Assembly: GCA_022539475.1 (NCBI GenBank)
Contig: VCMS01000063.1
Span: 62,001 to 126,000 of the forward strand
DNA: 64,000 bases
Reading direction: 5' to 3'
Origin: Gracilaria domingensis
Lineage: Eukaryota; Rhodophyta; Florideophyceae; Gracilariales; Gracilariaceae
Positions 2,166-64,000 of this stretch are shown in pieces (within the stretch, counting starts at the first letter, position 1; every line of letters begins with the position of its first letter). The position numbers and the translations under genes were made by a program. The notes beneath the pieces were generated by a model. That model did not search any database. It was not told where the DNA came from and saw only the letters and a program-made list of their open reading frames with translations.

Positions 2166-3472
2166 TCACTTCGTATCAGAAGCTCTCTCAAAAACCATTG
2201 CCGTAGATCCACCTCCGCCATTACATATGCCAGCCACCCCCACTCGAGAATCCGTATGCTTCATGACACTGAGCAATGTAACTGCAATTCGTGCTCCGCT
2301 ACACCCCAGTGGGTGCCCTAAGCTAACTGCACCTCCAAAAAGGTTTACCTTTTCTTCTGGAAGTGCTAAAAGCATTGAGTTTGCCAAAGCTACCACGGAA
2401 AAGGCCTCATTCAATTCAAACACATCGACTTCGTCCATGCTCCTACCCGCTCGTTTCAATGCTTTCGGAATAGATAATGATGGTGCTGTAGTAAACTGTT
2501 CCGGTTCTACCTCAGCATCGGCAAACCCGCGTATAGTGACCAGCGCTGATAAACCGAGTTCAACGGCTTTTGCCCTGCTAGCAAGCACCAGCGCTGCTGC
2601 ACCATCGTTTAACCCGGACGCATTTCCTCTGGTTACTGTACCACTCCCGTCTTTGATGAAACATGCTGACAATGACTCCATAGTAGACACATCAATGCGG
2701 AAACATTCCTCATCTCTTTCCACACATAGATCCCTTCCACCTTCGCTTACAACGACTGGTACAACTTCCGAATAGAACCTTCGATCTTCCCATGCGGCTC
2801 TAGATCGTCGATAGCTCTCTTTTGCGTGCCTGTCTTGCATTTCCCGGGTTATGCCATGACGCTCTGAACAAATTTCGGCGCAAAGACCCATGTGGTTCTG
2901 GCTATCTGGATCGATTAACCCGTCGTTCAGCAGTCCGTCTACCAGCTGTCCGTCGCCAATACGATAGCCGAAACGGGCCTGTGGAACGTAGAATGGGATT
3001 TTCGACATATTCTCCATACCCCCTGCAACGACAATGTTAGCTTGCCCTAAGATTATGTCTTGGGCAGCCATAGATAAAGTCTTAAGGCCTGAGGAACATA
3101 CTTTGTTTACTGTGGTACATACACAGGAAACTGGTAAGCCTGCCCCCATGGCTGCCTGCCGGGCTGGAGCCTGTCCAAGACCGGCAGAACAAACGTTTCC
3201 CATATAGCACGCATCCACATCACACGGGCGGACGCCGGCCTTTTTCAATGCGCCTGCAGTCGCAAGTTAGTTTCGATCTGGCCTCAGTACTTTGTACGAT
3301 GGGCTGGATTACACGCACCTTGGATAGCAATCGAACCTAGTCTGGTTGCAGAGACTCTTGAAAGTGATCCACCATATGAGCCAATTGGCGTTCGTGCTGC
3401 TCCGACAACAACGACTTCATTAAGCGCATTTGTAACATCTGCGTTCATGTTTTGACTTCCAGAAGATGGCAA
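2166..3472 (-). CDS. Acetyl-CoA C-acetyltransferase (thiolase II), one intron
   Basis: Joins two acetyl groups from acetyl-CoA to acetoacetyl-CoA, feeding the mevalonate and sterol route or ketone metabolism. Exons are 3472-3319 and 3253-2166, separated by a 65-nt intron; the joined product is 413 residues, normal for the family. The thiolase core is complete: catalytic Cys at about 104 in NKVCSSG, His at about 365 in [10 protein letters not shown], and the second Cys at about 395 in CNGGGGST. The N-terminus is short (about 20 residues before [12 protein letters not shown]), with no clear organelle peptide, and the C-terminus (ASDTK) is not a peroxisomal signal, so a cytosolic enzyme is inferred. 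It is divergent from the FAM173-like gene, about 500 bp between starts. Confidence 0.93.
3254..3318 (-). other. Spliceosomal intron of the thiolase gene (65 nt)
   Basis: Donor GTGCGT, branch-like ACTAAC and acceptor CTGCAG on the minus strand. Removing it joins SIAIQ to GALKKAG in frame, exactly as the thiolase family requires; reading through gives a stop. Confidence 0.9.
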
Positions 3473-22939: not shown

Positions 22940-24157
22940 TCAGGGAAAGGGTAGTTTGCATGGCAAAGCTTCGATATGGATCACATTGTGTACGGCTAGA
23001 ATTTTGATTACGCTGTCGTTCTGATGTACAATGAATGAAAGTGGATTACCAGGCGTTTCATGACATTCAAATGCCAAGCCTTGCTCACTCTCTTTCCTTG
23101 GCAATGCAGATACTTGCATGCCGATAGTCTTGTTAAAACTTACGTCCGCAATGCGGTAAACGTCTCGTGCAGATGTTTCAAGAATGTAACCGCCGGTACC
23201 ACGGCGTGCAAACAAAATCCCTCTGGCGTTGCGCACGGTGAGCGGTGTAATCATGACTGAATGCTCGTGAAAAACAGAGGCAGCTAGTTCTGCAGACGGT
23301 AACCGAGCGAGCGCTAACAACGCGGGAGGTTTTCTACAAAGGGCGAGCAGTTTAACAATTCGAAGATCCGACATAGGTAACAAAGGTTTCTGAAGTGTAT
23401 GCAGAAATGCTTCGTCATGTAGCACAGGTGTGTATTCTTTGGTGGGCAGGGTAGGTAAAGACATGAGGTGTGCGCTACTGCTTGGGTTTCGATGTGAGGA
23501 GAAGTTAAGAATTCGAGTGTAGCAAGATGTGAAGGAGTACACAAGTAACATATCAAGTACGACAGCAAGCGAGAACGGGGCCGCGTTTTCCTTTTCTGTA
23601 TGAGAAGGTATCGTAGCGGCAGTGCGCTGAGAGGTTTGTTTGTCCAGATCAAGAAATGCTGCCTGCAGGTGTTGTGGTAACATATTCAATCTCAGCTTCT
23701 GATCATCGCGAAGGGCGAGTGTAGCACGTGAAAAGAAAACTTGGCGAGCATAGACATCCTTCGACCAAGGCAGCGCAATACGCAACAAGCGACTTAGAGA
23801 GCGTGGACGGAGAAGCACCAAGACGGCCGAGACTTGGTCAGCCAAAATCAGCGCGATGACGGACGCATCGGGCGATATCGACAGAGCGCGGATGGCGAAA
23901 TCGGGAGGGGCAGTCCATTCCGCAAGTATGACGGACTCGGAAGGGGAGAGGGGATCTGTTACCTTGAAGGTTGTCAGAACAGACCGAGATGCGGCGGCGA
24001 TGATGTCGACGGCGGTGGCGAGGTAACACAGCGGCTGTTCTGAACTGGAGCGCAGGATGGCTACGGCAGAGCCTTCAGACGGACGGCGCGAGAGCGATTT
24101 GACGCGCGGCGGTGTGGGCGTAGGTGGGATGATGACGTCTGGCGGCGGCTGGCCCAT
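22940..24157 (-). CDS. Unknown protein, possible beta-propeller
   Basis: 405 residues from the ATG at 24157 (MGQPPPDVIIPPTPTPPRVK). I do not recognise the family. Short hydrophobic strand pairs such as IRALSISPDASVIALILADQ and VSAVLVLLRP resemble degenerate WD-like blades, and the C-terminus repeats this style (FIVHQNDSVIKILAVHNVIH). There are no membrane segments and no signal peptide. The frame stays open to 24643 but that extension is an Arg-rich antisense shadow of GC-rich sequence and is left out. It is divergent from the rubredoxin-domain gene with about 400 bp between starts. Confidence 0.65.
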   Translation of the reverse strand: MGQPPPDVIIPPTPTPPRVKSLSRRPSEGSAVAILRSSSEQPLCYLATAVDIIAAASRSVLTTFKVTDPLSPSESVILAEWTAPPDFAIRALSISPDASVIALILADQVSAVLVLLRPRSLSRLLRIALPWSKDVYARQVFFSRATLALRDDQKLRLNMLPQHLQAAFLDLDKQTSQRTAATIPSHTEKENAAPFSLAVVLDMLLVYSFTSCYTRILNFSSHRNPSSSAHLMSLPTLPTKEYTPVLHDEAFLHTLQKPLLPMSDLRIVKLLALCRKPPALLALARLPSAELAASVFHEHSVMITPLTVRNARGILFARRGTGGYILETSARDVYRIADVSFNKTIGMQVSALPRKESEQGLAFECHETPGNPLSFIVHQNDSVIKILAVHNVIHIEALPCKLPFP

Positions 24158-24565
24158 CTCTTCGCGGTCAGAAACAGCCGAGCGGCATCGCTGAGCGGCA
24201 CCGTCGAGCAGAGCGGCACCGTCGAGCAGCATCGCCGAACACACGCCGCCCCCATGTCTGTCGAGCCCAGGCCAGCGAGAGCGTTTCAAGCGCAACTGCG
24301 CCCGGGCGTCGACGATGCGCGCTGGCCACGATGCTTGCGTGGCAGCCCCTGAAATGGATCGGCGGTTGGATCTCGGCGCGCAATCTTGACACTTCAGATC
24401 GGAGCCCGAACAATCTCGCCACCGCCGCCTGGGTTGATCCGTCCGTTTCGTTCCCCTTCGTAAGCCCCGACTCTTACATCCCCTCCGGCGTTCTTCTCGC
24501 GCGCTGCGTCCCGCCCCCTTCTTCATCGGCCTTTGTCGCTTTTTCCGTCGCCCGGCCGCTCTCAG
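24158..24565. promoter_or_regulatory. Divergent GC-rich promoter region
   Basis: About 400 bp, clearly GC-richer than its surroundings, between the divergent starts of the unknown gene and the rubredoxin gene; it probably serves both. It contains two adjacent direct copies of a word with core GAGCAG.GGCACCGTC near 24195-24230. Confidence 0.4.
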
Positions 24566-25807
24566 ATGCATCGTTGCGCGATTCCCACTGCGTTCTCGCC
24601 CGCGTCGCCGGTGCTCTCGCGTCGACATACCGCTGCTCTGCACCCTTCGTTATCTACGCGTCGTCGTCGCTCGGTCACATTTGCTGCCAATCGTGTCACC
24701 CAGCGCATTTCTTCGTCAGCCCAACGGCAAAATGAGCCCCATCCCCCGGCATCTCACAGCTCCCAAAGCGCCAAACTTTCTTCCTCCACCATTCGCGTTG
24801 CCAGCGCACGCGCCATTAGCCCCATGCGCCGTCCTGACGCGGATCGCTTCACTGAGATGCAGCCCCTTCCTTCCCAGAGACGTACTGACTTGATGGCGCC
24901 CAAGACTGTCGGATTTTGGTCAATTATACCGTACATGGCTGCCTCAGCGGTTATGGTTGGTGTGGCTTGGCTCGCGAAGAAGCGCTTTGCTGCCCGACAG
25001 GCCGCTCTTGTAGACGAGTTTGGCCAAGTTATAGTCTTGTATGGGAACAACCCTGACGCAAAGCGCGAAATCGCGTCGGAATACAAGCGGAAGCTTGGAC
25101 CTGGTATTTTGCGAGGCGCTATGTTTGCGTCGTATCTAGCCACGCTTGTCGCTGAAAAGACCATTGCCCCATCCACCATCCAGGAGGTTTCATTGGTGAA
25201 GAAGTTGTTACGTGTTGGTGACGACAAGGCTATCAATGCGATTAACAAATTAGCTGCAACTATGAGTGAATCCCCTAGTTTGTTGGGCAAGCTTCTCTTT
25301 ATTACTGAAAGGATTCTGAATCCGGACAAAGTACCTGGATTGGAACTTGTGCCATTGTTCCCTTATAGCGCGTCCACCGTGGCTGATCTCCAAAGAAACA
25401 TGCTCGAACGGTGTTATCGCGACTTTGTGACACACGAAATCGAGCACAATGGAGCAGAGGAGGTTCCATTGGCTGCTGCTGCCGCACTACGGTTAGACCA
25501 AGCACATGCGAAGCTTCTCTTCGATGGGGTTGTGAAGGAAAGAGTGAAGCGACTTGAGGAGGAGGCCGCGACAGCAGAGGCGGCCGAAGCAGAGGAAGCC
25601 TCCACACTTAGTACCGAAGATCTTGATTACCCCGCCCGCTCTGGAGAACCTGCTAAGGCGGCTGTGCATGCATACCAGTGCTCAGATTGCGGTTATACTT
25701 TGTTCCCCGCGGCTGGAAGAGAGTTTAAGTTTTACGGCGATGACTTTGTATGCCCGGCCTGTGGTGCTCCAAAGGACAGGTTTGTCGATGTAAATGCAGA
25801 AGAGTAG
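24566..25807 (+). CDS. Plastid membrane protein with C-terminal rubredoxin domain
   Basis: 413 residues, first ATG at 24566. Residues 1-45 are a Ser/Arg/Ala-rich transit peptide (FSPASPVLSRRHTAALHPSL). One membrane segment follows (YMAASAVMVGVAWLAKKRF, about residues 120-140), then a helical domain of about 200 residues of unknown function (SEYKRKLGPGILRGAMFASY, VKKLLRVGDDKAINAINKLA), an Ala/Glu linker, and a rubredoxin iron site at the end: CSDCGY (Cys 372, 375) and CPACGAP (Cys 396, 399). The rubredoxin domain binds one iron and moves single electrons. Plastid rubredoxins are known in photosystem assembly and stress tolerance; that role here is inference. The long middle domain is not part of known rubredoxins I can name. 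Confidence 0.85.
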   Translation: MHRCAIPTAFSPASPVLSRRHTAALHPSLSTRRRRSVTFAANRVTQRISSSAQRQNEPHPPASHSSQSAKLSSSTIRVASARAISPMRRPDADRFTEMQPLPSQRRTDLMAPKTVGFWSIIPYMAASAVMVGVAWLAKKRFAARQAALVDEFGQVIVLYGNNPDAKREIASEYKRKLGPGILRGAMFASYLATLVAEKTIAPSTIQEVSLVKKLLRVGDDKAINAINKLAATMSESPSLLGKLLFITERILNPDKVPGLELVPLFPYSASTVADLQRNMLERCYRDFVTHEIEHNGAEEVPLAAAAALRLDQAHAKLLFDGVVKERVKRLEEEAATAEAAEAEEASTLSTEDLDYPARSGEPAKAAVHAYQCSDCGYTLFPAAGREFKFYGDDFVCPACGAPKDRFVDVNAEE

Positions 25808-26871
25808 TTGACAAGGTTTCTACTTCAATCAAGACATCCTGTGCCCACGTGAACGGTTTTTGGTGCTCGTAGATGTTTTGCCGATCAGAGATCAATATTG
25901 TAATCATTTTTTTTCTTCCGAAAGACGGGTGGTCGCGGCTAACTTTGTGAGGTATGCCAAGGCTTCATCTAACTGCCATGGCTTGTATGCATGCTATTAT
26001 GCTCCAAACTAGGTTCCATGATCCGAGTTGATAATATTTTGATGAAAGGTTATGGCAAAACTGTAGCATTTGCCGAGGAATAATTCATCAGTTAGGCGTT
26101 GCACAAATTCCAACTCCACCCATGCAACCCTTTGTAGTTGGGTTACAAGAGCAGGAAAGAGCCTAATCTCATGTCTTCGTGTACGCTGGAAAGAAGGGCT
26201 GAACAAAGAAGACGTCTACAGCGTTGTCTTCAGTCTCTTTATAGTTACTAAAAGGGAAATTCTAATCACGGAACACGTATAAGGCCAACACCACTACTAT
26301 CACGTAATGTTGTAAGGAGTTCCAATGCAGAGCGCCTTTCCAAAGTCTAATTCGTGTTGCCTGCTCTCGGTATCCTTCTACACAAGGTACTACGGTAGAA
26401 CGAACAAACCTCTTTGAGCGAAACGGCTTTAGATACTCTAAAAGTTGAGCGAGGGTGACGTCAGTCGATTTCGTGTTGACTTGATTTCTGTACCGTCGTA
26501 CACGCGTACTGTAACCTATGTAGTTCGGAGAAAAGTGATTTCATTTCCTGCTTTGTCCTGGATGATGTCTATGTACCAAGGGTACAAACTGGGAAGGGTA
26601 GCGTTCTCATCTCCGGGCTTTGGCCCAAGGGTTGTTGTCTGATGCGTTGAGCTCCAGTCTCTGGACCAGAGAAAGATCTGCGTTATGGTTTCCACTATGC
26701 TCAGGAAAATGTCTACCTCAACGAATTTCACTGCTCCCTTTGTATGAGAAATATCTTGGAAAAGAATCTGTTCGAGCATAAGCTTCATCCTTTCGTTCAC
26801 TACTATCCCCACCCTGACAGAGAGCTAAAAAAGTGGGGTGAGCGAAAGATCGGTTCTCTCCGACTGACTCC
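25808..26871. other. Intergenic, no gene seen
   Basis: 1.06 kb with short frames only. Exact TACCAAGGGTA at 26574-26584. Confidence 0.4.
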
Positions 26872-27318
26872 ATGGCATTCATCTGCAGTATCTCGAGGCC
26901 ATGCTCTGCCGTCACACGCATTACTCCAACTTGCAAAAGGAAGAATCACACCCGTAGGCCAAGCCGTCGTGTCCGGCGTCCCCATCATAAACCGGCGTCA
27001 AAGTCGAACAGCAGTTCTACAGGTAATTACGACATCGATACGACTGATATAACAACTTACATATCATGCCCAACTTGTTTTAACAGTATAATGCTCAGAC
27101 CAGAACGACTTTCTGATGCTCCCTTGCGAGTTGTATGCAACTGCTGCGAGCAGGAAATCGATGCCACCTTAGATCGTTTGGAAAACATGGATGGAAGCCC
27201 TTTCAATGCAATGGCGTGGCGAAAGGGTATGACGGTAGCGGCCGGTCAACCTGCTCCATATACAGAGGAAGACGTTGCGACTTATTTTGAAGAACATAAG
27301 TCATTCAATTCAAGTTAA
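26872..27318 (+). CDS. Small zinc-ribbon protein, possibly organelle-targeted
   Basis: 148 residues, ATG at 26872. The first 50 residues are strongly basic (CKRKNHTRRPSRRVRRPHHK), like a targeting peptide or nucleic-acid binding tail. The conserved-looking core is ISCPTCFNSIML and VVCNCCEQEIDATLDRLENM, a C-x2-C ... C-x2-C zinc ribbon. The end (PYTEEDVATYFEEHKSF) is acidic. Function unknown; a nucleic-acid or protein-interaction role is possible. The frame is open only from the chosen ATG region, and coding character rests on the zinc ribbon. Confidence 0.6.
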   Translation: MAFICSISRPCSAVTRITPTCKRKNHTRRPSRRVRRPHHKPASKSNSSSTGNYDIDTTDITTYISCPTCFNSIMLRPERLSDAPLRVVCNCCEQEIDATLDRLENMDGSPFNAMAWRKGMTVAAGQPAPYTEEDVATYFEEHKSFNSS

Positions 27319-28100
27319 GCCTGGTCCGGACTTTCCGGCCGTGCTTATGAACATGGTGCGAGCAATTACAATCAGCCAATTCCGTATAATCACGGACCCT
27401 TGATATTGAAGTTACCCATAATTATCATAGACACTTGAATACCCGAAGGATTTCTCATACTGTATGAGTCATGTGCACGCTACTGAACTCTGTGTTCTAG
27501 TTGTTTTTTGTTGTAGCAATGAGTTAATTGAAGGAATGAGTGAATTGAAGGAATCACCAACCACGTCTAACAATCCCTGGGAACCGTCTGCTATGCAATG
27601 TGGCATCACGGTCTAGCCTGGGGCTTGGCCCAGAACAGGTACTTGGACACTTCGAACGGGTGCCTGTAGCTCAGCAATTTCTCAATTCACTGCGTGATAA
27701 TTCCTCTTAAACACTGAGTTCCCAGTTTTGAAGGCCAGTACACGAGAACACAGCTAATGCTATTCCGATCATGTAACCTTCAACTTCAATGATTATGTTC
27801 AGACCTGTCTCAATCACGTTCCGATAGACAACAATGTCCATTCAGTTCGAAATGAATTGATGTGCTTGCACGTGGTGAAGTACTTATTTTGCTCAACGGC
27901 TGTGCTCAATCCGAACATTCAGGAGCCGTTTTACTGGGTCTATCAATCACCTTGTAGCTAACAGAACGGGTAAGACGGGAAATCTTTGAAAGTGGGTATC
28001 TTCATCACTTCAAACTTCCTCTATCGCGGTAGTACTGTAGTCCAAGCAAGAACCTTCGAAACCATTTGAACGGTTCAGCATAGACTGTATCTGCGCAAAA
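27319..28100. other. Intergenic, no gene seen
   Basis: 780 bp with no protein-like frame. A direct repeat of the word GAGT(T/G)AATTGAAGGAAT lies near 27520-27555. Confidence 0.4.
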
Positions 28101-29421
28101 ATGAACGCAACGAAACAGCTGAACTGTTGTGTTGGGAAACTTGTGTGGAACTTCTCGTTTTTTGTGTTCGTATCGTGTCTGTTTACAACTTGTGTTTCAT
28201 TCACCGAGATTTTTTTGATTTGCCAAAAGCTCCGATGAAGCCATCTTCTATGCAGGAAACAGAGATTCAAATTTCTTCATTGCGAGACGAGATTTAAATT
28301 GTTCCTTCAAATGGGAAACCTCGACGGGGTCAACGAGAGGTGATGATGACAATGACGAGAACAGAGAGATATTCTATGACGCTATTGTTAGTTCTGATGG
28401 TCTCCTCTACGCGGTAGGGACCACAAAAGGCAATTTTTCATTTCCCACCGAAGAAGTCCCAACTTTGGATGCTGTGGTTGTAGTGTACAATGCGACAAAT
28501 GGGGAGCTGGTGAGGCAAGCCCAATATGATGTTGGGAACGGGCTCGATGACATTGCTAAAGCTGTCGTAGAGAGTTCACGCGGAAATCTTCTCCTGTCAG
28601 TTCAAGGGACTCCGCATAATATTCGGAATAGTGCCGTGCACGAAACCAGACTTTTAGAGATTTCTCGCGATACTCTAGCGCTAATCCACACTCACAAACT
28701 TGAGCTAACAACCCACGATCGCCTCATTTCTATCACCGGTGGGCCTTCAATCTCAGACATCGTATACGTAAGGGACCAGGAAGCTATAGTAGCTGCTGGA
28801 CAGTTTCTTGGTAGAGGAGTGTTGTTCTTGTACAGCTTAACGACTGGCACTGTTCTTCGTCAAACTGAGTGGGGCAGTATTCTTGGGAACCAGCAAGTTG
28901 GAGCTCTCATTATGGACGAGACGGGTGCGTTCTACGTCACTGGGTCCAGTGATATGAATGTTCTGGACAACGGAGATCTCAAAAACAACGAGACTAAACA
29001 TTATCATGCCTACGTCATTCGCTACGATAATCTTCTCGACGGGGCACCTGTACGTTCCTGGGTGAGACAGTTAAGCGGCTATGGGAGCAGCCAGTCTGGA
29101 GACGACATAGGGCTTGATCCGGTCACAGGAGAACTTGTAGTGATTGGTTCCTTCGGTGGGAACTTTACAATGTCCGATAAGCAGTCTGGTAGAACATACG
29201 AGTTGAACACTCTTACGAACAACGGGCTTACTGATATCTTTGTGTGGTACATCGACGCAGGTTCTGGTTCTTTCAAAGATTTGGGGCTGTCGTCTGCCGC
29301 AAGCACTCTATCTGAAGATCGTGTCAATGCCCTTCAAGTGTTGTCTTCGAGACGCCTGGAAATTGGTGGAGTCATCAATGACGGTGCAGATGACGAAGCG
29401 TTATCTTGTTTGGGAGAATAG
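28101..29421 (+). CDS. Secreted beta-propeller protein (SBBP-type repeats), 5' junction unresolved
   Basis: The main frame is open from 28219 to 29421 with no early ATG. It reads as successive propeller blades: DEAIFYAGNRDSNFFIARRD, FYDAIVSSDGLLYAVGTTKG, ALIMDETGAFYVTGSSD, GLDPVTGELVVIGSFGGNFT. A separate ATG frame at 28101 encodes a good signal peptide (NFSFFVFVSCLFTTCV). The two are in different phases, so a short intron (for example donor 28175 or 28181 with acceptor at 28229, about 50-55 nt) or an indel must join them; I cannot choose. The product, about 410 residues, would be secreted or cell-surface. The last blade ends abruptly (GADDEALSCLGE), so a 3' exon could be missing. Ligand and role unknown. 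Confidence 0.6.
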
Positions 29422-30274
29422 ATGTTTAACTAATCACAGAGCGACAATTACTCCAAGAATAATTTTTCTTGTGCGCAGTGAGAACTTCCATCACCCACAA
29501 CAAAGCGAAGAAGCTCGAAGACAGCCTTGGTGAGCCGTGAGCGTTGTGTTTGGTACCCTTGGTACTTCTGTAGTTAAAGGAAATGTAGCACAAATATCGT
29601 GCTATCAAGGACCTGTCAGTAGACCTCCCGTTCTGTGATGGAAGTTCTTGTTGCTTGTACTAACGATACCATCCTGGTACTACCTTTGGTACCATGACTC
29701 GGTTGCATTTGGACTTTCCACTGTGGGTCTTTTGCAAGTCAATCACTAGGGGAGAATCGACTGACTATTTGCAGGTGCATCCGCTACTCTTCTTATTCTC
29801 GTTTAGTATAGTCCTCTACTCCTTATTTCAAAGTAGCGGGAGAGCTCACCGTCAGATGTAGCTCTCTCCTAAAAAAAAGGGCCGAAAGCTTCGACGGCCA
29901 CTGCCTAATCATGTCCATCATTGTTTTGTCTCAACTCAATTATTCTCGTTTACGCCGTTCACGGCGTTCACGTTCACGTTCTGTTAAGAAGGGGCCTAGC
30001 CGTTCTGTTAAAAACGGGCCTTGCCCTTACTGTGCGAACTTCTTCTCTGCGGGATCTGTTTGTGTGCGGGCATCGAAACAGTACGTGTTGAACGTCTATG
30101 TGCGCATGTACACTGCATTCGCATCGAAGCGGTTTTTTGTTCAAGTAAAAAGAAACCGGATGTAGCTCTAAAACATGGCCTGTAGAGAGAATTGCGCAAG
30201 CACAACCTCATCCGCTACTCGTTGTAGCGCAGCTAAGAAGATTATATCTGAGAGCCTATGACAACGCGCTATTG
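29422..30274. other. Intergenic with simple repeats
   Basis: No gene. Exact TACCCTTGGTA at 29554-29564. Near 29955-30030 the words TTCACG(G/T) and TTCTGTTAA..GGGCC are repeated in tandem. Confidence 0.4.
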
Positions 30275-55257: not shown

Positions 55258-56035
55258 TACTTTTCAGAATACGGATATAGTAATAGTTATCTGTAGCTGT
55301 AAAAAGCAAGTGCTTCATAAATGACAATTTCTATGTAACAAGTCATTCTTGGTACGAGAATTTCGTTTTCCTTACCGTTCATATTGTAGGTAAATTCTTT
55401 GCGACCAAAGTAAAACATAATCCAAACGTTACTTAAACTGCCACCTACAATCTAACCTATAGAAAATAGCCGTTGCTTCAGACCATGTAAACAAAACCAT
55501 GTAACCCACAAAAAGAAACAGAAAACCAGCATCACCATTTTAAAACCTAGATTATCGTTCTGGCGCTCACGTCCTCGTACTCAACAGTGCAAAGCGAGAA
55601 AAAAGACTAAACATGTGAAAAAGTAGTCGGAAAGAGAAAACAAAGATATCTCTTTAATAAAAAAGCTATTTATTGATTAAAAGCTGTCCTATATTGTGAT
55701 AGTGCTCCAAACCTTAACAGAACAAGGCGATGTAAGCAGCACAGTTATCGTTGCTCTATGAAGGACCCACCGTGTGCTGCGCAGCATTTTTCAAGAAGAG
55801 AATTTGAGGCGGTGGTGCTTGCCCTTTACTAGATGGTTTCACGGAAAAAGCGAAGATGCGTAAATACCACCATAACGTTAAAATTCTCTTTGCACAGTCT
55901 ATATCGACATTCTGTTCACGGGGCGAAAACATTCAGAGATAGACCCAATAACATCTCTTAACATCTATTCTAGGTAAAGTTTCTATCTTGCAGGTCCTTA
56001 TAGTGTGCCAATTCAGCTGGTTTGCCATATGCAGT
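55258..56035. other. AT-rich intergenic region
   Basis: 780 bp without protein-like frames. Confidence 0.4.
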
Positions 56036-56425
56036 AGATACGGATGCGAGCGACTACCAAGTCGACTGTGCCCTATTCCAGACCATCAATGATGGGGAGC
56101 GATTGCCAATTGGGTATTGGTCATAGAGCCTCAACGTTCACGAGAGGAATTAATCGGTATCCAAGAAGTGCTTGGCAGTTGTCTAAGCATTACAGACACT
56201 GCGGCCCTATCTTATGGGGATACGCTTTATTGTCCATACCAATCAATCCACCTTACGCTGGCTACTCTCTATCGCAGAGCCATCTGGCCGCTTGATGCGG
56301 TTGAGACTTCGCTTGTCGGAATTGGACTTTGAAATCCGCTTCAAGAAAGGACTCCTGAACACTCCGGCTGATTGTAGTATAGCTCGGCCAGATCAACGGG
56401 GGCTCTACAAGACCGAGTGGTGACG
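56036..56425 (+). mobile_element. Ty3/Gypsy RNase H relic
   Basis: One frame still reads as the Ty3 RNase H domain: DTDASDYQVDCALFQTINDG, LPIGYWS, then TLRPYLMGIRFIVHTNQSTL RWLL and SGRLMRLRLRLSELDFEIRF KKGLLNTPADC, interrupted by at least three stop codons (TAG, TAA, TAA). It resembles but is clearly diverged from the same domain in the adjoining intact element (near 61390-61740), so it belongs to another, older family. Confidence 0.8.
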
Positions 56426-57076
56426 TCACGGGCTCCCGGGCACGTGTGCCTACTGTACCACGTGGGACGCGTAAGCGCAGGCTTGGACAAGACTAATTAG
56501 TCTATTTTCGTTAATTTAGAATTAATATTTACTCGGTAGTGTAGATATGTGGCCGGGGTGGTGCACCACAAATGCACCTCCCGGTGACCCACGTGGCACT
56601 AGGCCCGTGAGAGCCGGAGGGGCGCTCGGGTGTACTAAACCCCCGAGACGCCAACCTCCCACACCAAATGGTAAAGTCAAGCACCAACTAGGCTGATTTG
56701 ACACCAGTTCGGTTCTACAGTCACCAATTGGTAAGTCTAGTAGTCCTCTAATAGTTTTGCTGACCTCGAGGGTTATACGTGCCTGCCGCACACCAGTGCA
56801 GGCGTATTTACCACTTGGTCACCGTGCAATATAGGCAACGGCGGGTGCTGCTGACCTATTAGGTGTCACGCGTTTCACTCCTCCGCAGGGTCGAGCCCAC
56901 GCAGGGCTCCCCACAAGCAGCTCGCACCGATCGGTTATACCACATATTTTGGTCTCCGGACCAAAAATTTGTGGATTACCAAGTGGTTTTGGAAAGGCAG
57001 GATTTGGAAGTCACGAGATATCTGAGTGGTTTGGTTCTCGTTGCCGAAGCAATTTACTCCGACACCAGTTACCTAA
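56426..57076 (+). other. 5' non-coding part of the chromovirus (LTR and/or leader)
   Basis: 650 bp with no gene. It contains six CCANNTGG sites (56458, 56589, 56664, 56724, 56811, 56979). No primer-binding site ending TGG next to a CA terminus could be fixed, so the LTR end is not marked. Confidence 0.5.
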
Positions 57077-59341
57077 ATGGAGAAGCGGGGCGTGCGTCAC
57101 CCGAAAAGGGCGCCGAGCGCTCCACCAAGTGGCCACCTAGTACGGGGTTCAGTGTCCTATCCGGTATTGGATAAACCGGAGGACCTGATTTGGAAGGAAG
57201 GCCCACCGAGGGGGAAGAAAGTAGACCGAGAGGCTGGGGGCCCCTCGACCCTTCCCCGGGCTGACCAAGTGGACGGAGGAGCAGGTTCCGCAACGGAGGA
57301 GCCCGCTCCTGTAACAACCCCAGTGGTAGACCAAATAGAGGTGCCAGTCGGGCCGCGACTGGACCTGGACGAGGTCACCCGAGTGGTAGTTGATCGAGCC
57401 TCCCAGGAGGTCCTCGACAAGGTACCCGTGGTGGTGTTACAGTACCTAGAGAACGAGGTACGAAGACACATTGACCGAATGGTTATGCTGGCTTTGCAGA
57501 AGCAGGGGGCCAAGCTACCATCTCAGGTAGCCCATGCTGCCCTCATGAAGCAACCTCCCCGGCCGGCAGCGGAAGTCACCAAACCACTTGGTATTTTCCA
57601 TCCTACCCTTCCTACACAACCGATTGGTGAAGGATTTAGCGACCGCATGGGGAAAGGGGCAGAGCTTCCGGACATGGAGGGCCCGAGGTACGTATACCTC
57701 CCCCAACCCACTGGTGTAGCTCCGTCAGGACCACGTGGTGGAGACCCTGATGGAGATTCGTCGAGCTCAGGAGACGAGCGTCGACGTAAACCAAATGGTA
57801 AGAAGAAGAAAACCAAAAGGGGAAAGAGAAAGAGTCGCCGGTCGGACTCGGACTCTTCGTCCTCAGACACCGATTCGGATTCGTCAGGAGACGACGACCG
57901 TACAGGTTCACGACGCAAGAGGAAGGACTCTCGCCATAAGAAAGGAAAGAATCCCCGCAAGGGTAAGACCAAAAGGTATAACGATTCGGACTCAACTTCC
58001 GACGAGGAGACTGACCTAGAGGTGCTTACGCCGCTCAATGATTTATTCACCAAAGCGGTTGACTATCGTACCTATAGGTTAGAGAACAGACAGGCTGAGT
58101 ATACCAAAGAGGTAGCTCAGAAGATAACGAAGCATCATAGAAAGCTTCGTTTCCAACTGGGTGAAACTCGCTTTAGCGGGGATGACCCTATTGCGATCAT
58201 TGATTTCCTTCAAAGGTTCAAGATCGCTTGTGACCAGAATGGGTTTTCAGAGGCAGCAGCCATGTGGCTGTTTCAATTCTACCTAACTGGTCAGGCTGGA
58301 GCGTTGCTCCACAGCCGCCTCCAAGGAAACACCATGGCGGTGGACGAAGACCAAACGGAAATGTTGACGACATACCCACAGGTGGTTAACTTCCTACTGG
58401 AAACCTACGCGACCGATGAGGTAATCCAGGAGGCGTACGCAGAGGTGCTTGCGTACCGCCAGCGCGCGGGACAAACCGAATTGGAATTCGCTCGCTCCTT
58501 ATGGGCATTAGCCTCCCGCTGTGGAAGCGTCTTTACTACCAAAAGGTTGAAATCGATGTACGCCGACAACGTGGCGAAGTCTATCCGATCACAGGTTCGT
58601 AACTACCTAGCTACCGACCGCACGGTCGACTACAACGCACTAGCCCGCCATGCACAGGGACTAGGCGACACCGTTCGGTCAGGGGCCAGGAAAGACTCCG
58701 CACAACTTGGCAAACCATCGAAGGAGAAAGGAAAAACCAGGCGGTCAGTGTTTGACGTAGAGGAAGAGGAGACCACTACGGAGGAGGCGTCCACACAATA
58801 CGCCTCCCAGGGTCACCCAGTCCACTTGGTGCATGCGCAACCGACAACTCGATCGCACGGTAATACCTCTTGGTCCAGCTCGCTATCCAGCGAGCCACCC
58901 TCAAGACAAACCTCAGCTCTACCATCAGAGGTATCCGTACCGGTCAGCCCGGTCCTAGCGGTACCATTCAAGCAATATGGTGAACGAGGACCACCCCCGC
59001 AGCAACGGAGTGCAGTACCTACTGGAGGCCGTCCCCCATCGCGCGCGTCGTCGCTCGCGATGAAGGACCCCACAACCGGCAATCTCCTCTGTTGGTTCTG
59101 TTTGTCGCCTCACCACTTGGCCACAGCGTGCCCAAGTGTGGCTCCGCAGAACAGGAACGCTCTCCTGACTGCTCGCCAGCAGAACCACCAGGATATATTT
59201 GGGCCCCCGGCGCGGAGCGCAGGCACGGGACACGCAAATGCGCGACCCAATGCAGCCACACCTCATCAGGTACACCTCGTTACGGAGCAGGACCAAACGG
59301 ATCCCGCCCCGCAGGCGGAAAACGCCGAACAGTTGGGATAG
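57077..59341 (+). CDS. gag: Gag polyprotein of the chromovirus
   Basis: 754 residues. Residues 1-230 are low-complexity. Next is a strongly charged Ser/Asp/Lys/Arg block (KKKTKRGKRKSRRSDSDSSS and following, about 235-310), likely nuclear-targeting or nucleic-acid binding. The capsid-like retrotransposon gag domain follows: FQLGETRFSGDDPIAIIDFL, AAAMWLFQFYLTGQAGALLH, YAEVLAYRQRAGQTELEFAR. Near the end is a CCHC zinc knuckle CWFCLSPHHLATAC. Gag forms the particle that packages the RNA. Pol overlaps its 3' end in the -1 frame. Confidence 0.88.
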   Translation: MEKRGVRHPKRAPSAPPSGHLVRGSVSYPVLDKPEDLIWKEGPPRGKKVDREAGGPSTLPRADQVDGGAGSATEEPAPVTTPVVDQIEVPVGPRLDLDEVTRVVVDRASQEVLDKVPVVVLQYLENEVRRHIDRMVMLALQKQGAKLPSQVAHAALMKQPPRPAAEVTKPLGIFHPTLPTQPIGEGFSDRMGKGAELPDMEGPRYVYLPQPTGVAPSGPRGGDPDGDSSSSGDERRRKPNGKKKKTKRGKRKSRRSDSDSSSSDTDSDSSGDDDRTGSRRKRKDSRHKKGKNPRKGKTKRYNDSDSTSDEETDLEVLTPLNDLFTKAVDYRTYRLENRQAEYTKEVAQKITKHHRKLRFQLGETRFSGDDPIAIIDFLQRFKIACDQNGFSEAAAMWLFQFYLTGQAGALLHSRLQGNTMAVDEDQTEMLTTYPQVVNFLLETYATDEVIQEAYAEVLAYRQRAGQTELEFARSLWALASRCGSVFTTKRLKSMYADNVAKSIRSQVRNYLATDRTVDYNALARHAQGLGDTVRSGARKDSAQLGKPSKEKGKTRRSVFDVEEEETTTEEASTQYASQGHPVHLVHAQPTTRSHGNTSWSSSLSSEPPSRQTSALPSEVSVPVSPVLAVPFKQYGERGPPPQQRSAVPTGGRPPSRASSLAMKDPTTGNLLCWFCLSPHHLATACPSVAPQNRNALLTARQQNHQDIFGPPARSAGTGHANARPNAATPHQVHLVTEQDQTDPAPQAENAEQLG

Positions 59342-59397
59342 AGGCCTTCCCCAACTGTCCGAAGACGGAAGGCCTTCCAGAACCAAGTGGTGCAAGT

Positions 59398-62300
59398 ATG
59401 GACAATTACCCATTGGTTACAGGGGAGGAGAGCCTCATGGACGGCACCGAACCGATATGCTTTCTCAAGCATAGTAACTATAAGGTAAACGTCACCCTCG
59501 GGTTTACTTCTAACCACTTGGTACCATGCGTCACTGTCCTGGACACCGGGGCAGGACCTAATCTGGTGAATGCCAAATTATTAACTAACAGACAACTTAA
59601 TAAGCTTCAGCCATGTACATTAACTAACCCACTGGTTGACGCCAACAACAGACCACTAACCGTCATGGGAGCGCTTACCATAATGGTATTGATTGACACC
59701 ATGAGGGTCCGAGTTCGCTTCATAGTCGTCAACCAACTGGCAACAGACTGTATCCTCGGAACAACTTTTATAGACCAGCATGTCAGGGCAATTGTTCCAC
59801 GTTCTAAGACAGTTCTGTTCCATAATGGCCCCCGGATCGCCATTATTGGTAACCACAAGGGTGCCTCTACGAAAGAGAACCGCACTCAACACCAACCGGT
59901 CCCGGAAAACACACTCTCCAACAAGGTGCGATTGGCAAAGGCGGTAACAATACCGCCTATGAACCACTTGGTAGGGAAGGTCACGTGCCAACAACCTGGC
60001 CTGTTATCCAATCAGAACCATTCACGGTTGGCCGAACGACACATGACCTTAATGGCGAATGGCATAGTCGACAACATACCGACAAAACCGTTTCAGGTCT
60101 ACCTGAGTAACTTCAGCAACCGCCCGGTCAAGTTGCCAAAGCACACCGTAATTGGTCTTGCCTTACCGGCTCCCCGTACGATCTTTACAATTATACCACA
60201 ATGGTCCCACGAGGTCGTGGATGCTAAGGAAGGGGGGGGCAGTGTCAATTCGTTGAATTCGTCGCGAACAGACCATATGGTGCAGCGACTGGCTGAGCGA
60301 GAAGACCAGAAACTAGAGCTCGACCCAGTGACCAATTGGAAGACGGAGGTGAATATAGGACTTGAAGGGGAAGAGCTCAGAGCTCGGATCCTTGGACTCC
60401 TGGAGCCATTCAGTACCATGTGGTCGGGTAAGCTGGGAGCCATTAAGGCCACCCAGCACAGGATTGACCTCAAACCGGACTCCCGTCCCATCCACCAACA
60501 GCCATACCGCGCGGGACATAAGGCCCGTGAGGTAGAGCTGGAGGAGGTAGAGCGGATGCTCCGCGAGGGGGTTATAGAACCGGCAAACTCGGAATGGGCT
60601 AGCCCTGTAGTGCTAGTCCAAAAACGAGGAGAGACCCGTATGAGGTTCTGTATTGACTACAGAAAACTTAATGCCGTAACGGTAAGGGACTCGTACCCCA
60701 TCCCGAGGATGGATGAATGCATCGACTCCCTAGGAGATGCGAACATCTTTACCACACTGGACGCGAACTGCGGGTATTGGCAGATCGAAATACCAGAGGG
60801 TGACCGTGATAAGACTGCGTTTACATGCCACGCAGGCCTGTATCGCTTCTTACGCATGCCGTTTGGTTTAAGAAACGCCCCCGCTACCTTCCAAAGGGCG
60901 TTAGACATCATACTGTCTAAAGTGAAGTGGACAACCGCATTGGTATACATAGATGACGTAGTCATCTACTCGAGGTCCATAGAGGAGCACTTCTCGCACG
61001 TCCAAGTGGTACTGCAGTTGCTACAAGAGGCAGGCGTGACCCTCAAACTACGAAAGTGTATGTTCTTCAACCAAGAGGTAGAGTACCTAGGGCATACAAT
61101 AAGCCCCGGGAAACTCGAAGTGACCAAACGGAATATCCGAGCGGTACAGGAAGCGAAGCTCCCTACGTCGCAGACGGACATACGATCCTTTATAGGTCTA
61201 TGCAACGTCTACCGGCGGTTCATCAAGGGTTTTGCAAAGATAGCCGCACCCCTGAACCGGAGGTTGCAGAAGGGGCAGCCCACACACTTTGACCACCTGG
61301 AAGAGGACGAGGTGGAGGCGTTCTATACATTGAAAGCAGCGCTTCTCTCCCCACCGGTACTGGCATTGCCCAAAACGGGACTCCCGTATACACTGGACAC
61401 AGATGCGTCGGACGCCCAAATAGGTTGCTGCCTAATGCAGGAACAGGAGGACGGCAAGCTCGCACCAATTGGGTATTGGAGTAGAGCTCTTAACCAAGCG
61501 GAGCAGAACTACACCGTAACGGAGAAGGAATGCCTAGCGGTTGTTTGGAGTATGCTCATGCTACGTCCTTACCTATATGGTGTGCGCTTCACGCTCCGAA
61601 CGGATCACGACTCCTTGAGGTGGATATTAGGCTTGGCGGACGCATCGGGTCGTCTGGCCCGATGGCGTCTGAGACTCTCGGAGTTTGAGTACGATGTGCA
61701 GTACCGCCCCGGGGTCAAGCACCGAGTGGCGGATGCATTGTCCCGGTTGAATACCGAAGGATTGGACACTGACCCAGTGGACGACGACATCCCATGCTTT
61801 ACTATAGAACCAGCTAACCACGAGGTCAATGAAGTTCTGAAGGGATACTGGCATGATGACAGTACGTACCAAGTGGTAGTGGAGACCCTCCTTCCTGTGG
61901 AGGAAGGGGAACACGCTCCAATCACCCGTGAGGAATTCTTACGCGAACAATCGACCGATAGGTTGTGCAAAACGCTCGCTGACGTACTTGGAAGGAAGGA
62001 TTCTCATTTCGACGTCGACCACAATGGGTACCTCATCAGACGCTCACCTTTAGACGGAGCTCTCCAGAAGGTCGTACCTGAGTCATTAAGACAAAGGGTG
62101 TTATATCTGTCACACAATCCACGGCTTTCGGGACACCCTGGAGCCACGCGGTTGTACTATACCCTTCGGAGGCAATTCTACTGGCCGCATATGGCTAACG
62201 ATGTATATACCTATGTGGCGCAATGCAATTCGTGCATTAAGACCCGAGGTGGTGTGGCGAAGCACAGGAAGTACCTAAAGCTATTCCCGGCGGCGGGGCC

Positions 62301-63642
62301 CCTGGAATTCGTAGCAATCGACATACTGGGGCCCCTGCCTAAGACCTCAGAGGGTTACCGCTTTGTAGTAGTCATAACCGACAGGTTCACAAAGCTCACC
62401 AGAGCCATACCTCTGAAGAACCAAACGGCAACGACACTAGCGACAGCCTTCCTGGAGAATTGGGTCTACCCGTACGGTGCTCCCATGTACCTACTGACCG
62501 ATAACGGTTCGAACCTAGCTTCTAAGTTCTTCGAGGCGGTTTGTACAATGCTAGGGGTCAAGCACTACTTTACCACGGCCTATCATCCGCAAACAAACGG
62601 CCAAGTGGAACGCTTCAATAAGACCCTAGTGGCACGCCTACGGCACTATGTCGAAGAGCACCAAACCACATGGTCTGAGTATGTCCAACCATTGACATAT
62701 GCGTACAACCTCCAGGTCCACAGGGTCACTCAAACAACCCCATTCGACCTGGTACTTTCGCGAACACCACATGGTATTATCGTCCAGCCCGGACCTGACC
62801 GCTCGGAAGCGGCCGGGACACTCACACCGGCGAAGGTCAAGAGAAACATACTCCAGAAGTTACGCGCCACTTTGGCTGCTGCCAAAGTTAAGATGACAGC
62901 AGCCCAAGAACGGTATAAAGCGGACTATGACCGAACGGTGAGCAAAGTGACCAAAGTGGTAGCAGGAGACATGGTCTTCCTTGACGTGCCACCAAAAGGT
63001 AAGCGACCAACCCCAGCGGAGATGGAAGAGGACATCCGCCTTGAGGAGGATATCAATTCTAAACTACTACCCAAGTCCACGGGACCATACAAGGTGATTC
63101 GCTCCGATGAGCATACCGCTACGGTCATAATGGAAGGTTTGGAGAACACGGTCTCCATCGACAGGATTGTCAAGGCCGCACAACCGACGACAGCGAATAC
63201 ACAACCAATAGGTGAGCCAACGCAGCAAGAAGCGGAGAGGGAGCAAACGTCTCCCATACCCCCTCCTATGATGAGTCAGCCGAGCGGTCAACCTTCCACC
63301 AGAGCCGTAACGGCTGACCCCACGACCCAAGCGGCACAGGAGATCGAGCCTCGGCAAGACCAACGGGTCACACCACCCACGGGGAGCCACGCACCCCATG
63401 ACCAAATGGAAGAGTCACACCCTCAAGTAGACACTCAGGAGTGCGCTATTGACACCATTGTAGGTCACGAACACACCACAAAGGGTATGCGCTACCGGGT
63501 AAGATGGTATGGATGGTCGCCCGAGCACGACTCTATGGAACCACCTGGTCATATCCCTAACAACTTCATCATCCGATACTGGCGCAAACAAGGGCGAACG
63601 CCCCCACCAACTGGTATTGCTTCGCGTGGTACGCGTCGCTAA
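59398..63642 (+). CDS. pol: Pol polyprotein of the chromovirus (PR-RT-RH-IN-chromodomain)
   Basis: The pol frame is open from 59092, overlapping gag by 250 bases in the -1 phase; its first good ATG is 59398, 57 bases after the gag stop, giving 1414 residues. Protease: VLDTGAGPN (59541-59555). Reverse transcriptase: RFCIDYRKLNAVTVRDSYP and catalytic YIDD (60946-60957). RNase H: TDASDAQIGCCLMQ. Integrase: zinc HHCC (HNPRLSGHPGAT to CNSCIKTRG), catalytic Asp in AIDILGPLP, Asp in LTDNGSN, Glu in GQVERFN. C-terminal chromodomain: YRVRWYGWSPEHDSMEPPGH. Expressed either by -1 frameshifting in the overlap or by reinitiation; no canonical slippery heptamer is evident. The chromodomain suggests insertion into marked chromatin. 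Confidence 0.93.
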   Translation: MDNYPLVTGEESLMDGTEPICFLKHSNYKVNVTLGFTSNHLVPCVTVLDTGAGPNLVNAKLLTNRQLNKLQPCTLTNPLVDANNRPLTVMGALTIMVLIDTMRVRVRFIVVNQLATDCILGTTFIDQHVRAIVPRSKTVLFHNGPRIAIIGNHKGASTKENRTQHQPVPENTLSNKVRLAKAVTIPPMNHLVGKVTCQQPGLLSNQNHSRLAERHMTLMANGIVDNIPTKPFQVYLSNFSNRPVKLPKHTVIGLALPAPRTIFTIIPQWSHEVVDAKEGGGSVNSLNSSRTDHMVQRLAEREDQKLELDPVTNWKTEVNIGLEGEELRARILGLLEPFSTMWSGKLGAIKATQHRIDLKPDSRPIHQQPYRAGHKAREVELEEVERMLREGVIEPANSEWASPVVLVQKRGETRMRFCIDYRKLNAVTVRDSYPIPRMDECIDSLGDANIFTTLDANCGYWQIEIPEGDRDKTAFTCHAGLYRFLRMPFGLRNAPATFQRALDIILSKVKWTTALVYIDDVVIYSRSIEEHFSHVQVVLQLLQEAGVTLKLRKCMFFNQEVEYLGHTISPGKLEVTKRNIRAVQEAKLPTSQTDIRSFIGLCNVYRRFIKGFAKIAAPLNRRLQKGQPTHFDHLEEDEVEAFYTLKAALLSPPVLALPKTGLPYTLDTDASDAQIGCCLMQEQEDGKLAPIGYWSRALNQAEQNYTVTEKECLAVVWSMLMLRPYLYGVRFTLRTDHDSLRWILGLADASGRLARWRLRLSEFEYDVQYRPGVKHRVADALSRLNTEGLDTDPVDDDIPCFTIEPANHEVNEVLKGYWHDDSTYQVVVETLLPVEEGEHAPITREEFLREQSTDRLCKTLADVLGRKDSHFDVDHNGYLIRRSPLDGALQKVVPESLRQRVLYLSHNPRLSGHPGATRLYYTLRRQFYWPHMANDVYTYVAQCNSCIKTRGGVAKHRKYLKLFPAAGPLEFVAIDILGPLPKTSEGYRFVVVITDRFTKLTRAIPLKNQTATTLATAFLENWVYPYGAPMYLLTDNGSNLASKFFEAVCTMLGVKHYFTTAYHPQTNGQVERFNKTLVARLRHYVEEHQTTWSEYVQPLTYAYNLQVHRVTQTTPFDLVLSRTPHGIIVQPGPDRSEAAGTLTPAKVKRNILQKLRATLAAAKVKMTAAQERYKADYDRTVSKVTKVVAGDMVFLDVPPKGKRPTPAEMEEDIRLEEDINSKLLPKSTGPYKVIRSDEHTATVIMEGLENTVSIDRIVKAAQPTTANTQPIGEPTQQEAEREQTSPIPPPMMSQPSGQPSTRAVTADPTTQAAQEIEPRQDQRVTPPTGSHAPHDQMEESHPQVDTQECAIDTIVGHEHTTKGMRYRVRWYGWSPEHDSMEPPGHIPNNFIIRYWRKQGRTPPPTGIASRGTRR
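60223..60239 (+). promoter_or_regulatory. Candidate central polypurine tract
   Basis: GCTAAGGAAGGGGGGGG, 17 bases identical to 63638-63654 at the end of pol. It lies inside the pol frame just after the protease region (reads DAKEGGGS). A second plus-strand primer site, as in Ty1 and lentiviruses, is the obvious reading. Confidence 0.55.
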
Positions 63643-63654
63643 GGAAGGGGGGGG
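63638..63654 (+). promoter_or_regulatory. 3' polypurine tract
   Basis: GCTAAGGAAGGGGGGGG spans the pol stop codon (TAA at 63640-63642) and is followed by TTATCG. Such a purine run after pol normally primes plus-strand DNA synthesis and borders the 3' LTR. Confidence 0.7.
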
Positions 63655-63792
63655 TTATCGAAGCCGTTGAACGCCACGCTACACGAAAAGCTAACTAACT
63701 AACCTAACAGGAAAACAAAAGAAGATCAGAGATCACAATGCAAGACACTTTATTAGTCGAGAAGAATCCACGAGAGCGAACGACGAGGTGAC
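63655..63792. other. Spacer between pol and antisense frame
   Basis: No gene. Includes tandem CTAACTAACTAACCTAAC (63691-63708) and the minus-strand polyadenylation signal. Confidence 0.5.
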
Positions 63793-64000
63793 TTAGGAGG
63801 CCTTGGAGGACCCACGGCCACGTCCGCGTCCACGACCGGTTCCACGACCGCGACCACGTCCACGAGAGGTCCCGCGAGATAAAGCGGAACCTCCACGACC
63901 AGAGGACACCGACACAGGTCCGGCGGAGCTTCCGCCCCCGCCGCTAGCCGCGCTCGCTGGCGCACCACCACTTGGTAAGGGAGCAGAAGTACCAGCAGGT
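63793..64000 (-). CDS. C-terminus of an antisense GAR/RGG-rich protein (partial)
   Basis: On the minus strand one frame is open from the edge to a TAA at 63795-63793, 68 residues. It reads PLPSGGAPASAASGGGGSSA, VSVSSGRGGSALSRGTSRG, then repeated Gly-Arg (GRGRGTGRGRGRGRG) and ends SSKAS. Such GAR/RGG tails bind RNA or are methylated in nucleolar and Sm-like proteins. An AATAAA on the minus strand (63754-63749), about 40 bases past the stop, supports a real 3' end. The frame contains an ACCAAGTGGT site, so it is probably part of the retrotransposon rather than a host gene; the alternative is a host gene next to the insertion. Start lies outside the window. Confidence 0.5.
   Translation of the reverse strand, partial: PAGTSAPLPSGGAPASAASGGGGSSAGPVSVSSGRGGSALSRGTSRGRGRGRGTGRGRGRGRGSSKAS

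Follow-up and report, generated by a model that had tools for sequence, protein, structure and literature searches.

Family-specific palindromic sites along the coding sequence of red-algal chromoviruses, with an antisense gene product as candidate reader

Introduction

Why should one short palindrome recur from end to end of a retrotransposon, inside its genes as well as in its repeats? The question is raised by a 64,000-nucleotide stretch of the red alga Gracilaria domingensis (positions 62,001 to 126,000 of the 205,725-base contig VCMS01000063.1; hereafter the window), toward the right-hand end of which a Ty3/gypsy chromovirus begins. A sequence-only reading of the window had claimed that a palindrome, the 8-mer CCANNTGG with its longer form ACCANNTGGT, saturates this element across leader, gag, pol and an antisense frame, and that a protein encoded by the element or by the host recognizes the element in bulk. 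We followed the motif through the element and through its relatives in the 77.9-Mb assembly that was scanned. In our best explanation, to which we assign a probability of about one half, each family carries private sites read by a family-specific dimeric protein, the best candidate for which is the product of the antisense gene.

A palindrome throughout the window element

Between positions 56458 and 63975 we counted 33 copies of CCANNTGG, close to the roughly 31 claimed and far above dinucleotide shuffles (mean 2.66, maximum 8, 200 shuffles). ACCANNTGGT, whose start lies one base before that of CCANNTGG, has 18 starts in this range against a shuffle mean of 0.19 (maximum 2, 200 shuffles); at least 18 had been claimed, and as the last one overruns 63975 by one base, 17 lie entirely within the range. 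The whole window holds 45 copies of CCANNTGG, while all 18 of ACCANNTGGT are confined to 56458-63975. Positions 1 to 56372 have 12 CCANNTGG against a shuffle mean of 11.8 and no ACCANNTGGT against a mean of 0.57 (40 shuffles), in agreement with the statement that the 8-mer is at chance level in the rest of the window.

The saturation is real, but the element is longer than the range first given for it. Its 11,717 bp run past the end of the window (Table 1) and are flanked by the 5-bp target-site duplication (TSD) CTGAT at 56368-56372 and 68090-68094. Pfam matches in pol follow the order RVT_1, RT_RNaseH, Integrase_H2C2, rve, and Chromo, the last with an E value of 1.2e-5, slightly above the cut-off. 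With long terminal repeats (LTRs), reverse transcriptase (RT), RNase H, and integrase in that order, and a C-terminal chromodomain, the element is a chromovirus. It is inserted into a second chromovirus, referred to below as the nest.

The palindrome as named proved to be the best sub-form of a wider motif. When the 64 inverted triplets were ranked by gap, ACC-N4-6-GGT stood out; it occurs 127 times in the whole element (68 with N4, 39 with N5, and 20 with N6) against 15.4 in dinucleotide shuffles (maximum 24, 200 shuffles); ACCANNTGGT, its strongest sub-form, occurs 27 times against 0.25. There is about one site per 93 bp, with near-Poisson spacing. The density is highest in the LTRs (15.7 sites per kb) and ranges from 7.6 to 12.4 per kb in the leader, gag, pol, antisense region, and 3' region. 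The middle two bases, which had been described as free, are not entirely so: an inner A..T pair is found at 49 of the 216 CCn4GG sites of this family (family A). Genome-wide, ACCANNTGGT occurs 4164 times and its reversed control 1620 times.

Coding sequence does not account for the sites

The sequence-only reading had argued that no shared peptide explains the sites and had proposed codon-preserving shuffles as a check. We permuted synonymous codons in 400 shuffles, and the excess remained. ACCn4GGT occurs 15 times in gag against a shuffle mean of 3.4, 25 times in pol (59344-63639) against 5.9, and 5 times in the 522-codon antisense piece against 1.4, with 0 of 400 shuffles reaching the observed number in each case. 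GGTn4ACC, the everted control, does not depart from expectation in the window element. For cross-validation, the motif was picked outside pol and tested inside pol with 500 codon shuffles, which gave 25 against 6.0 in family A and, in the related families described below, 21 against 5.8 (B), 27 against 5.2 (B'), and 19 against 4.4 (D), none of them reached in 500 shuffles. The antisense open reading frame (ORF) of D is enriched (22 against 6.9) and that of B weakly so (CCGn2CGG, 4 against 2.2 in codon shuffles). A shared peptide as the cause of the sites is ruled out by the codon shuffles and the cross-validation together.

Each family has its own palindrome

Relatives were fetched down a ladder of RT identity, with 104 of 2563 RT candidates scored between 100% and 65% identity, and 13 stretches were verified as chromoviruses. 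A CC...GG palindrome ranks first among the inverted triplets in all 13 groups, with z between 6.5 and 20.3; the groups are not independent, since some are close kin and several are represented by samples of 5.5-9 kb. Its bases and spacing vary by family. The site is ACCn4GGT in A (the window element), ACCn5GGT in A' (C342 and C62), CCGn2CGG in B (C508), B' (C123), and B'' (C26), CCCn3-4GGG in C (C150), CCGn4CGG in D (C198), CCGn3CGG in D2 (C340) and C169, CCAn1TGG in E (C69) and E2 (C16), and CCGn6-7CGG in the nest (z 6.5). The motif is family-specific, and about seven site types are present in one genome.

Direct triplet repeats have z of at most 5.7, except for microsatellites in D (13.2) and C169 (45.8). 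Seventeen host DNA windows of 6 kb, with starts from 1 to 48001, have a top z of 3.0 to 6.1. The transposon controls consist of one copia element (3.8 kb) and one 0.9-kb copia fragment only; the copia element shows no comparable palindrome (top z 3.7).

Three side observations arose here. The strongest inverted triplet of the host windows is CGT-N2-ACG in 24001-30000 (10 against 1.5 expected, z 6.1). Closely packed copia (RVT_2) matches are found on few contigs (C435, C447, C344, and others) and look like copia-rich blocks. The stretch C77:110500-116000 (L057), near an antisense match, has 15 CCGn7CGG against 2.0; it was dropped from the count of groups, having been chosen by guess from the antisense match and having only a short pol-like piece.

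Sites turn over between families

Turnover was measured in pairwise codon alignments. A and A' have 30 and 33 sites with 9 in common, B and B' 34 and 43 with 16 in common, E and E2 81 and 76 with 47 in common, and the nearly identical D and D2 43 and 44 with 43 in common; A and B share no site at the same start column. Between related families, sites are partly retained and partly replaced at similar density.

Paired half-sites are kept better than lone triplets in six of six comparisons, three of which involve B-type families, and the difference reaches a nominal p<0.05 in four. In B/B', 84 of 154 paired half-sites are conserved (0.545) against 152 of 473 lone ones (0.321; p=9e-7). The corresponding fractions are 0.994 against 0.937 in D/D2 (p 0.003), 0.484 against 0.368 in B/B'' (0.03), 0.701 against 0.641 in E/E2 (0.04), 0.437 against 0.342 in A/A' (0.085), and 0.822 against 0.750 in B'/B'' (0.15).

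An antisense gene beside pol

In the window copy, the antisense frames of 522 and 374 codons are split by one in-frame stop. The genome-wide search listed 87 antisense matches, and 24 of these lie in frames of 935-959 codons with no stop in the match. We read the 3' region in eight groups, and in six of them (A, B, B', D, E, and the nest) an antisense gene with a homologous core lies beside pol on the opposite strand. Both LTRs were seen in A, B, D, and E, where the ORF lies between pol and the 3' LTR; in B' and the nest it was placed beside pol, the nest ORF being distantly homologous to that of the window element (E 1e-7). E2, D2, B'', and C169 have an antisense match at the expected place, so that the gene is found in 10 of the 13 verified groups, six of them read and four by match position.

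The antisense cores of B, D, and E are 28-31% identical to that of A, whereas pol is 47-50% and gag 36-46% identical over the aligned parts. TRP28 (PF04195) gave no Pfam match for the A pieces, and the six cores at E up to 10 gave one weak match, to another family. One distant homolog, P0001, is present in a EukProt transcriptome assembly. An AlphaFold model of the core is mostly helical, with low to middling confidence (mean predicted local distance difference test score 63). The antisense products form a fast-evolving orphan family and are probably helical.

The copy at C4:149087-154874 has an RT-region protein 100% identical (rounded) to that of the window and an antisense protein only 91% identical, which suggests an exchange of the 3' region between subfamilies. 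The element at C342:112913-122841 has 33 ACCn4-5GGT in a 3' region of 2234 bp without a detectable antisense gene; it is possibly a non-autonomous parasite of the A family.

Table 1. Features of the window and of the element that extends beyond it
Feature	Positions	Strand	Remarks
Ty3/gypsy chromovirus, 11,717 bp	56373-68089 (past window end)	+	LTR self-match, TSD, Pfam domains, site counts
5' LTR, 572 bp	56373-56944	+	6 ACCn4GGT and 3 ACCn5GGT
gag ORF, 754 aa	57077-59341	+	One CCHC-type zinc knuckle
pol open frame	58984-63642	+	Overlaps gag; RT, RNase H, integrase, chromodomain
Antisense gene, frame	66486..63796	-	3' end at 63796-64000 in window; ORF listing
3' LTR, 572 bp	67518-68089	+	98.4% identical to 5' LTR (self-match)
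Nest chromovirus, left fragment	56013-56372	+	RT/RNase H; window element inserted into it
Nest chromovirus, right part	pol from 68090; antisense ORF 71578-73413		Outside window
Example core site in LTR	56664-56671		Other LTR sites 56724, 56811; leader site 56979
Example site in pol	59964-59971		
ACCANNTGGT starts	56663, 56723, 56810, 56978, 57583, 57730, 57790, 59382, 59513		
ACCANNTGGT starts, continued	59963, 60272, 60415, 61868, 62665, 62766, 63540, 63606, 63967		
Thiolase gene, 99% match to Gracilaria domingensis	2169-3266		

Discussion

The motif is very probably a selected recognition array in double-stranded DNA. In the mechanism that we propose, each family would carry a private dyad site in many copies along the whole length of the element, coding sequence included. 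The site would consist of two GG-type triplets (GGT, CGG, GGG, or TGG) in inverted orientation, with a spacing that is characteristic of the family but varies slightly. Acting on the choice of codons and on amino-acid changes that are tolerated, selection would keep and re-create the sites. A dimeric DNA-binding protein specific to the family would find and coat the DNA of its own element, and this reader may be what the antisense gene located between pol and the 3' LTR encodes, an identification for which we see the odds as balanced. A co-evolving reader encoded by the element would be expected to leave each family with its own site, exchanged in concert over the whole element. Bulk binding might then keep the copies of that family alone transcribable, by anti-silencing or activation as with the VANC proteins of Arabidopsis transposons; by analogy this purpose is conceivable, and we hold it with some reserve. 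The full picture, of a clade that writes a private palindromic barcode into its own coding sequence to be read by the antisense product, each family protecting its own copies, is plausible but falls a little short of even odds. We infer all three of its working parts, namely protein binding, the antisense identity of the reader, and the anti-silencing effect. As to the original claim of a protein that recognizes the element in bulk, the recognition follows well from the dyad form, the codon shuffles, the family specificity, and the half-site conservation, but which protein it is and what purpose it serves do not.

Several results count against this reading, and some of them concern the sites. 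The variable spacing is unusual for a rigid dimer, and the z of 6.5 in the nest barely exceeds that of the top host window (6.1). Among the controls, two show some excess in pol, TGGn2CCA in A (5 against 1.9, reached by 6 of 400 shuffles) and GGTn4ACC in C342 (4 against 1.3, 7 of 400 shuffles). In E, the triplet picked outside pol fails to carry over to pol in 500 codon shuffles; CCn3GG is enriched there (75 against 38.3) and in gag (44 against 21.9; 0 of 500 each), and the antisense ORF is not enriched for it (16 against 14.6). Sites present on one side only with an identical peptide are few (4 of 45 in A/A', 11 of 45 in B/B', and 21 of 63 in E/E2), and therefore amino-acid changes take part in the turnover. 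Conservation of half-sites among copies, another check proposed by the sequence-only reading, found no support: in 28 of 30 rows of young copies (L011, with 421 differences, and L032, with 216, were left out as diverged or misaligned), 20 of 258 half-site columns are variable against 275 of 3798 others, and a second count is likewise null (30 against 30.8).

Other results concern the reader. No antisense homolog was found in the 3' region of the A' element C342 despite its dense ACCn5/n4GGT, nor a clear one in that of C150, which also has the motif, and C62 has no adjoining antisense match among the matches listed. Because C342 and C150 have the motif without a clear homolog, the motif is not tied strictly to the antisense gene in cis, and C342 would either use the A protein in trans or have something else as its reader. 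Comparing B, D, and E with one another gives 38-40% identity for the core, near gag (43-47%), and 50-53% for pol. The antisense protein has no credible relative by sequence in Pfam or the PDB, and the model of its core has no Foldseek match at E<=0.001. A regular-expression scan for the Zn2Cys6 pattern (CX2CX5-7C...CX2C) in the gag, pol, and antisense proteins of A, B, D, and E and the antisense proteins of B' and the nest found none, and a Zn2Cys6 reader encoded by the element is rejected on that ground.

The silencing that such a reader would oppose is also a point of difficulty. DNA_methylase (PF00145) was not matched in the genome search, so that a VANC-style role stays putative, and four Piwi-domain matches were found; with this combination, any opposed silencing would more likely be based on small RNA or histones. 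The copia element has a CpG observed/expected ratio of 0.89, and seven Ty3/gypsy stretches have ratios between 0.93 and 1.24. In Gracilariopsis chorda, about 8% of the genome is reported to be methylated, mostly at non-CG positions (PMC8566409, citing Lee et al. 2018), which fits uneasily with the absent PF00145 match in G. domingensis.

The reader could instead be another protein of the element, Gag or integrase, gathering its own cDNA or DNA copies for nuclear import, protection, or self-targeted integration. It would suit this that C342, without a detectable antisense gene, retains a pol open frame of 1087 codons, that the gag of A has a CCHC knuckle, and that the window copy is itself nested in another chromovirus. 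However, a double-stranded dyad is ill suited to a zinc knuckle, which binds single strands, and against A both gag (36-46%) and pol (47-50%) are more conserved than the antisense core (28-31%). The LTR ends, which integrase sees, are similar in A, B, and E despite their different motifs (those of D and A' look different), and recognition of LTR ends by integrase is rejected on this ground. We regard Gag or integrase as an unlikely reader.

We also doubt that the host supplies the reader, in the form of a family of dimeric DNA-binding proteins, activators or silencing factors, of which the element families recruited different members. Fungal Zn2Cys6 regulators read CGG triplets, which the GG-type half-sites at set spacing resemble. 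The motif in C342, which lacks a detectable antisense gene, would fit a host factor, as would the report that Sirevirus palindromes mostly matched sites of stress-related plant factors (PMC2829016). Against it stand the sites throughout the coding sequence, beyond the LTR, and the several host factors that about seven site types in one genome would require. A silencing factor, moreover, would select for loss, but the sites accumulate and tend to be conserved.

A signal in the genomic RNA, with hairpins of a 3-bp stem and a 4-6-nt loop serving packaging or dimerization, is highly improbable. A 3-bp stem closed by a tetraloop is possible for ACC-N4-GGU, and complementary pairs three positions outside the site are slightly high in B'' (53 against 42.5) and B' (92 against 80.2). 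Summed over 11 stretches, the unverified C77 stretch among them, such pairs number 726 against 854.6 expected at two positions outside the site and 869 against 854.7 at three, and because flank complementarity does not exceed expectation, the sites are not hairpins and we reject this explanation. CCGn2CGG and CGTACG, both used by family B, are unable to form such loops, and inverted triplets without CC/GG are only slightly enriched (417 against 350 in A, 254 against 247 in B, 407 against 370 in D, and 552 against 478 in E). In family A, 68 of the 216 CCn4GG sites have A:T as their outer pair, where the background predicts 22.9, and the other complementary outer pairs are below expectation, a pattern that points to recognition of a specific half-site and that stems would not explain. 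A mutational artefact, in which RT template switching or biased repair makes short inverted repeats, could produce the slight general excess of other inverted triplets, largest in A and E, but we reject it as having very little chance of being correct, since strong enrichment is limited to specific triplets at family-specific spacings, paired half-sites tend to outlast lone ones, and the copia element and host windows have no such enrichment.

Private sites read by a family-specific dimeric protein, our preferred explanation, have partial parallels elsewhere. The VANDALs of Arabidopsis are Mutator-like DNA transposons, unlike the red-algal elements, which are LTR retrotransposons. VANC proteins are described as binding family-specific motifs in non-coding tandem repeats of VANDALs, with loss of methylation as the result (PMC5735166); the motifs given, YAGTATTAY and AGTTGTCC/AC, are not dyads (PMC5735166; PMC10398659). 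The two systems are alike in having a private short motif in many copies per related family; motif and reader co-diverge in VANDALs, and in the red alga motif and candidate reader both vary by family. The dyad sites of the alga are, unlike the tandem repeats, scattered with near-Poisson spacing in gag, pol, and the antisense region. VANC acts through loss of methylation and silent marks; here PF00145 was not found, and the antisense product is only a candidate for binding. The parallel with VANDAL and VANC drawn by the sequence-only reading is incomplete: it holds for the accumulation of a family-specific motif and fails for the non-coding tandem arrangement, and the genome search gave no methylase match.

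A second parallel is with the palindromes of Sireviruses. Thirteen Sireviruses are reported to have palindromes that differ by family and that, with one exception, show a CGG-CCG signature; they lie in the LTRs and the linker before env, with varied spacing and 8-32 copies per element, and are absent from the classic retrotransposons compared in that report (PMC2829016). CCGnCGG palindromes are likewise found in B, B', B'', D, D2, C169, and the nest, with ACC, CCC, and CCA variants elsewhere. Unlike the Ty1/copia Sireviruses, the algal elements are Ty3/gypsy and have up to 127 sites across gag, pol, and the antisense gene. Searches of open-licence full texts turned up neither these red-algal elements nor a motif array within the coding sequence of a Ty3/gypsy element, which is a weak negative.

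Antisense ORFs between pol and the 3' LTR are known from plants as aORF-3R (Grande, RIRE2, and Retand) and are described as having no known function; TRP28 in Retand is predicted to bind DNA (PMC7264820, PMC11963269). The red-algal antisense gene is like them in position and orientation. Unlike Retand, a non-chromovirus with TRP28, the red-algal elements are chromoviruses without TRP28 or another Pfam match.

What antisense genes do in LTR retrotransposons is treated as an open question in these publications (PMC7264820, PMC11963269). The red alga makes this question directly testable, since it offers about seven site types in nature and, for most of them, a separate antisense protein; the antisense cores are also candidates for sequence-specific DNA-binding proteins that lack a recognized fold. 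If the explanation is true, it would give antisense retrotransposon genes their first function, and VANC-like self-recognition would have a second, independent origin, in a host without a DNA_methylase match. These families would then carry a DNA-binding code selected over their whole coding sequence, a constraint that is missed when such sites are taken as neutral.

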